IMG/VR virus record: IMGVR_UViG_3300037840_000382 | Location: 1-64,000 of that record | Source of the DNA: a virus | Strand: one strand, 5' to 3' | Length of the DNA stretch: 64,000 nucleotides | Part shown: in pieces, positions 46,146-46,424 of the stretch | How the letters are laid out: every line of letters starts with the position of its first letter | Numbering within the stretch: position 1 is the first letter of the stretch | Translations under genes and position numbers: made by a program | The notes under the pieces: generated by a model | Database searches by the model: none | Told to the model about the DNA's origin: nothing | The model's input: the letters and a program-made list of their open reading frames with translations, nothing else

Positions 46146-46424
46146 TTATCTTCCTCCAATGACGGATGTGACACGGTCGTACCAAATCAGATCGAAAGGT
46201 CGTGGGCGAGGAATCGGGATAGCGAGCACGGGCGGATTCGAACCGCCAACCTCTGCCGATTGAGCTACGTGCTCAGCTTGCGCGAATGCGTCGGCGGGAA
46301 TCGCGCGATGATGCGAAATCGTGTGGTGAACGTGGTGCCGGTGCTGCGCCGCCGCCGCCGCCGCCGCCGCCGCGCACGTCGAAAGCGCGAGGACTATGAG
46401 AGCCGACAGCGTTCGCGCAATCAT
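46146..46424 (-). CDS. Signal-peptide protein, poly-Ala and His-rich, with embedded tRNA-like element
   Basis: 92 aa from ATG 46424 (ATGA overlap with the preceding gene; GGAAG site). Leader MIARTLSALIVLALSTC, nine Ala, then HRHHVHHTISHH. Residues 51-67 are encoded by a tRNA-like segment that keeps the frame. Poly-Ala arises from a GCC-type run in the DNA. His-rich periplasmic miniproteins often bind metal. The coding status downstream of residue 50 is uncertain because of the embedded element. Confidence 0.5.
   Translation of the reverse strand: MIARTLSALIVLALSTCAAAAAAAAAQHRHHVHHTISHHRAIPADAFAQAEHVAQSAEVGGSNPPVLAIPIPRPRPFDLIWYDRVTSVIGGR
46224..46274 (-). tRNA. tRNA-like element lacking the anticodon arm
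   Basis: 51 nt on the minus strand. Acceptor stem GAGCACG/CGTGCTC pairs 7 of 7. TA linker, D-stem GCTC/GAG (3 of 4 pairs), D-loop AATCGGCA with the GG pair, then only GTT before the T-arm. T-stem GGCGG/CCGCC pairs 5 of 5 with the canonical loop TTCGAAT. Against a standard tRNA, 21 nt (anticodon arm plus variable loop) are missing. No CCA is encoded. It cannot decode codons, so it is a deletion remnant or a tRNA mimic. Confidence 0.65.

Follow-up and report, generated by a model that had tools for sequence, protein, structure and literature searches.

Structured DNA lying in frame within protein genes, and translated there, is known from the Rickettsia palindromic elements (RPEs) of Ogata and Claverie (PMC3733652, PMC10969869), and incomplete tRNA sequence in mobile DNA is known from the partial tRNA genes that are left by integration and keep one end (PMC9897764). 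The locus dealt with here, in the record of a soil phage (67,024 bases), has something in common with both, and with two more familiar structures besides. As with RPEs, structured DNA is found in frame within a protein gene, but RPEs are some 150 bp long, repeated in different genes and bacterial, whereas here a phage has one copy only, derived from tRNA. As with the partial genes, a tRNA in mobile DNA is incomplete, with the difference that both ends are kept and it is the middle that is missing. The tRNA-like domain of tmRNA also has a tRNA end without an anticodon; the phage element, however, lacks a tag reading frame and any tmRNA match in Rfam or ARAGORN, and its D-arm has base pairs. With canonical tRNA (Rfam RF00005) it shares the acceptor stem, D-arm, T-arm with TTCGAAT loop and a score above the cut-off, yet it lacks both the anticodon arm and an encoded CCA, its D-stem has three pairs out of four, it sits within a gene, and ARAGORN calls no tRNA anywhere in the window (by which is meant the whole 64,000-nt stretch analyzed).

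Read along the minus strand from 46274 to 46224 the element is GAGCACG-TA-GCTC-AATCGGCA-GAGG-TT-GGCGG-TTCGAAT-CCGCC-CGTGCTC, on exactly the nucleotides and strand to which the first-pass annotation had assigned it (Table 1). Most of what that annotation said of its architecture stands: the acceptor stem and the canonical T-arm are complete, and the anticodon arm is missing, the element being 51 nt long where a tRNA body has about 72. To call the D-arm intact was slightly too strong, as the arm is present but has the G10-G25 mismatch.

Table 1. Positions of the features considered, in window coordinates unless a contig is named
Feature	Position	Strand	Remarks
Host gene, 92 codons	46146..46424	-	signal-peptide-like start MIARTLSALIVLALSTCA, poly-Ala/His stretch, segment derived from tRNA, conserved tail RPFDLIWYDRVTSVIGGR
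Anticodon-arm-less tRNA-like element	46224..46274	-	51 nt = 17 codons, peptide EHVAQSAEVGGSNPPVL; sequence, RF00005 32.1 bits, CM R1 42.4 bits, E 4.7e-13
Acceptor stem 5' strand GAGCACG	46268..46274	-	7/7 pairs with 46224-46230
Acceptor stem 3' strand CGTGCTC	46224..46230	-	sequence and folding
D-arm GCTC-AATCGGCA-GAGG	46250..46265	-	3/4 pairs, G10-G25 mismatched; GAAG in the L004 copy adds a further mismatch
Junction GTT, D-stem to T-stem, in place of anticodon arm	46248..46250	-	3 nt; its G (46250) doubles as the final base of the D-arm
T-arm GGCGG-TTCGAAT-CCGCC	46231..46247	-	perfect, stem 5/5, loop TTCGAAT; sequence and folding
GCTA, tRNA positions 73-76	46220..46223	-	CCA not encoded; matches R-C-N-A of class elements
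GCT, direct repeat of GCT at 46275-46277 across the element	46221..46223	-	3 bp, chance possible
Right flank	46194..46223	-	protein motif shared with L002/L003, with divergence chiefly at silent sites; apparently came with the element
P335-type elements	L141 2994-3053, L142 2323-2382		after lysin gene

Is the likeness to tRNA fortuitous? The RF00005 match spans 46223-46274 and exceeds the cut-off of 29 bits (E 0.0087 with all 4,227 Rfam families searched), and a second copy, in a related phage contig (L004), gives an E of 1.4e-6 against the tRNA family alone. The unremarkable folding energy of the isolated element (z -1.8) is what could be said for a chance likeness of coding DNA to tRNA, an explanation that these values, and the E of 4.7e-13 with the class model R1 introduced below, leave scarcely credible. 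It is profile score and not fold stability that speaks for tRNA ancestry; at the level of sequence the resemblance is beyond chance, and the 32.1 bits with RF00005 and 42.4 with R1 establish that ancestry.

R1 models a group of phage elements with the same plan. Viral contigs were scanned with a pattern in which D-arm and T-arm lie too close together to leave room for an anticodon arm, the acceptor being left outside the pattern. The general pattern has matches in at least 119 contigs (L021-L139), with at least 95 unique phage matches having the anticodon-less plan and at least 74 an acceptor stem with six or more of its seven pairs. Since the acceptor formed no part of the pattern its pairing is independent evidence: shuffling the 3' arms among the matches listed gave a mean of 4.3 such stems and a maximum of 15 in 2,000 trials, against the 74 observed. 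In 66 aligned elements two-sided changes are found at 7/7 acceptor pairs (328 such cells across the structure) and the covariation score is 0.79 compared with 0.15 after shuffling; as the 66 were chosen for pairing, their 98.6% of paired cells is partly a product of selection, which the variety of pair types is not.

Among the matches listed the class elements are 56–62 nt long and mostly intergenic, and their positions 73–76 are A/G-C-N-A, where the signal ends. C74 is present in 49 of these 74 and A76 in 46, while position 75 is near random, unlike the middle C of CCA. The D- and T-stems are separated by linkers of 8–15 nt that cluster at 9–10, the minimum among 76 class-like elements being 8, and the G10 pair is present in 62 of the 66 aligned rows; the D-stem of the window element has three of its four pairs, and that of L004 fewer. 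ARAGORN calls none of the 74 listed and Rfam, in 20 loci scanned, sees such elements only as ‘tRNA’ (39–52 bits). Ordinary tRNAs are also present in 24 of the 74 listed loci, and terminase, head and endolysin genes are among the nearest neighbors, with no dominant partner. In one 145-kb phage contig (L052, 1356-2052) an anticodon-less element, a tRNA and a tmRNA of alphaproteobacterial type stand side by side. With a consensus query no class match was obtained in E. coli genomes, and plasmids yielded three partial matches.

Isolate phages have class elements too. That of Polaribacter phage Danklef_1 (73 bits) is annotated as tRNA-OTHER, Undet; that of Vibrio phage K476 (69 bits) is in a tRNA array and has its CCA encoded; and in the lactococcal P335-type phages bIL309 and D7138 an unannotated element (52 bits) follows the lysin gene, in D7138 on the side of the lysis genes that faces the integrase. 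The P335-type element stands, we presume, where attP would be expected. The M3 RNA of phi80 was considered as a precedent and rejected, being an annotated OOP homologue from a phage without a real R1 match (12.1 bits). No description of phage anticodon-less tRNA-like elements as a group was found in the open-access literature searched, which is not proof of novelty, and the stand-alone class seems to be undescribed as such. The earlier suggestion that the arrangement at our locus was without description in a phage holds in part: the anticodon-less design is widespread, and some examples have been deposited under the ‘tRNA-OTHER, Undet’ label, but the position in frame in a gene is unusual, as among the matches listed no class element lies inside a convincing gene. 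Other open reading frames spanning class elements were inspected by eye and rejected as looking spurious.

We entertain, with rather less than even confidence, the proposal that in tailed phages the class is a widespread one of functional tRNA-like RNAs which, having shed the anticodon arm, are unable to decode and are kept for a purpose other than translation, with that in the window having been turned into part of a protein. Hypotheses for their role are that they are processing signals, or decoys for enzymes or defense nucleases that grip the tRNA acceptor and elbow.

How does the window element relate to this class? An acceptor of 7 bp joined to a T-arm of 5 bp, the 42.4-bit score and the R-C-N-A end (as GCTA) are common to both. 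The linker, however, is 3 nt compared with 8–15, the length 51 nt compared with 56–62, and the location in frame in a 92-codon gene rather than intergenic. Because of the linker and the position inside a gene it is not filed as a member; it is likely to be a relative, and looks like a collapsed version of the class design.

Ordinary tRNAs score 31–47 bits with R1, so that the 42.4 bits of the window element does not settle what its parent was. An ordinary phage tRNA gene might have lost its anticodon arm in one deletion and come to be in frame by chance, with no relation to the wider class. A full tRNA minus 21 nt would yield the sequence, and the occurrence at another locus (L099) of a mini element beside a related full-length tRNA implies that such deletions seem to happen. 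That pair, an anticodon-less GCCGTCA... and a full tRNA GCCGCTA..., has the appearance, from the sequences, of one having been derived from the other by deletion. A first comparison of arm similarity favored class elements but was biased by the way these had been selected, and in a motif-matched version, with six canonical tRNAs only, the two kinds did equally well (best 35 matches for the tRNAs and 36 for class elements). Against this parentage, an in-frame deletion of about 6 nt, and so a smaller one, would suffice if the start was a class element, and the full-length parent that the first-pass annotation proposed seeking in hosts and related phages did not come to light. Exact and relaxed patterns found nothing in the window, 2.9 million viral contigs or genome contigs but the L004 relative itself, and BLAST against phages and plasmids just short or weak D- or T-arm matches. 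An ordinary tRNA as parent, which is a version of the main explanation given below with a different starting point, is to our minds rather unlikely. Far less probable is a remnant of an attachment site, a copy of a host tRNA gene used for integration. Fragments of tRNA from integration are common in prokaryotes (PMC9897764), and the phage has a serine-recombinase gene (2065-2799), yet integration leaves one tRNA end where the element keeps both and lacks its middle, the element lies in mid-gene 44 kb from the recombinase, and no matching host tRNA was found in genome contigs with the patterns tried. The recombinase gene itself (Resolvase domain, PHROG integrase/invertase) is at the other end of the record.

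The product of the host gene has a hydrophobic, signal-peptide-like start and would be a small secreted protein; neither a Pfam nor a PHROGs family matched the gene. That the element is nested in frame, as first proposed, is confirmed by its sharing the frame of the ORF 46424..46146. Near relatives of the gene occur in three other IMG/VR records (L002, L003 and L004), and a search for further alleles returned the same three and none among annotated phages. The gaps in the four-allele alignment are 3, 9, 15 and 18 nt, and with every one a multiple of three it is very probable that the frame is translated and under constraint. The site 46191-46274 holds two unrelated in-frame stretches across the relatives and adjoins poly-Ala and His-rich runs that are themselves variable.

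The element is common to the window and L004 (3300021170_000045). L002 and L003 have in its place AAACCTGGTGCTG...GAGAG, a different in-frame stretch 9 nt shorter, and their divergence from the window allele begins at tRNA nucleotide 1. Between the two copies of the element there is one difference, GAG>GAA, which is silent in the protein, breaks a D-stem pair and lowers the class-model score from 42.4 to 37.6 bits. In the right flank (30 nt) five of the eight codons differing from L002/L003 do so silently, pointing to constraint on the protein frame, and beyond it all four alleles are identical to the end of the gene. This pattern suggests that alleles which had already diverged exchanged the element together with its right flank, as a single block. 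The middle of the secreted protein looks like a hot spot of in-frame change. No outgroup showing the older allele was found, and in the full records searched there is no second copy, each carrying record having a single one.

Might the element still be put to use as RNA? The recognized core of an RNase P substrate is an intact acceptor and T-arm, and the bacterial enzyme reads an RCC motif. A dual-use reading would make the element a true class member that RNase P, or some other enzyme binding tRNA, still recognizes within the mRNA, with the message being cut or regulated there. The substrate core, the R-C-N-A end shared with the class and the high class-model score all fit such a role, but the 3-nt linker is well short of the class minimum of 8, C75 of the RCC motif is T, the D-stem has been broken silently in L004, two of the three relatives lack the element, and with long flanks the fold is lost; we regard dual use as decidedly improbable. 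The folding check proposed at the outset gave an answer in two parts. Folded alone the 51 nt are predicted to take up a tRNA-like shape, but once 75 nt of flank are added on each side, acceptor and T-stem have a predicted pairing probability of about 0.001, where stand-alone elements have means of 0.51 and 0.58. With flanks of 50 nt the value is 0.49, still inside the class range; the test depends on context length, and minimum-energy folding ignores tertiary contacts and co-transcriptional folding. With the fold lost, the D-stem altered by a silent change and two relatives lacking the element, the idea of a working RNA here is unsupported, it being borne in mind that a single substitution says very little about selection. 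The ideas of an RNase P signal and of a decoy gain no support from the alleles and the folding, nor does that of a tmRNA-like mimic from Rfam or ARAGORN, and of the options offered by the first-pass annotation it is ‘remnant’ that the silent break, the relatives and the predicted fold loss favor. The constraints visible in the sequence are those of coding DNA.

The account to which we incline, with somewhat better than even confidence, is that a tRNA-derived segment was captured as coding sequence and passed around by recombination, and is not a working RNA signal. The stretch would have derived from a tRNA or from a phage anticodon-arm-less tRNA-like element, illegitimate recombination being the probable route by which it entered a small signal-peptide gene in its variable central part. 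Insertion would have been in the tRNA frame that is most often stop-free; of the 74 class elements among the matches listed, 54 have an open frame 1 and none an open frame 2. Related phages would now maintain it and pass it on as coding sequence, the encoded peptide presumably being a linker that is tolerated and not one with a new function. That the event ran in this direction, with the segment entering the gene, we infer. Two features sit less comfortably with capture. The acceptor and T-stem are perfect in both copies although the accompanying right flank has diverged, and a long-dead copy might show more stem damage than this; further, the element is followed by GCTA, in agreement with the R-C-N-A found after stand-alone elements.

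With capture as the preferred reading, the locus would be a clean natural case of tRNA-derived sequence having turned into protein sequence, something familiar chiefly from the Rickettsia palindromic elements, to whose in-frame insertions the segment appears analogous, though single-copy and in a phage. More important than the locus are the dozens of elements, in other phages, whose tRNA acceptor, elbow and end signal are retained under clear selection for pairing and which have no means to decode. That annotation skips them, or files them as ‘undetermined’, may explain their having been overlooked. Should they be expressed, phages would be producing RNAs of tRNA shape for a use other than translation. 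It has been proposed that phage tRNAs are a response to defenses which cut tRNA, and on these the class would offer a new, testable angle.
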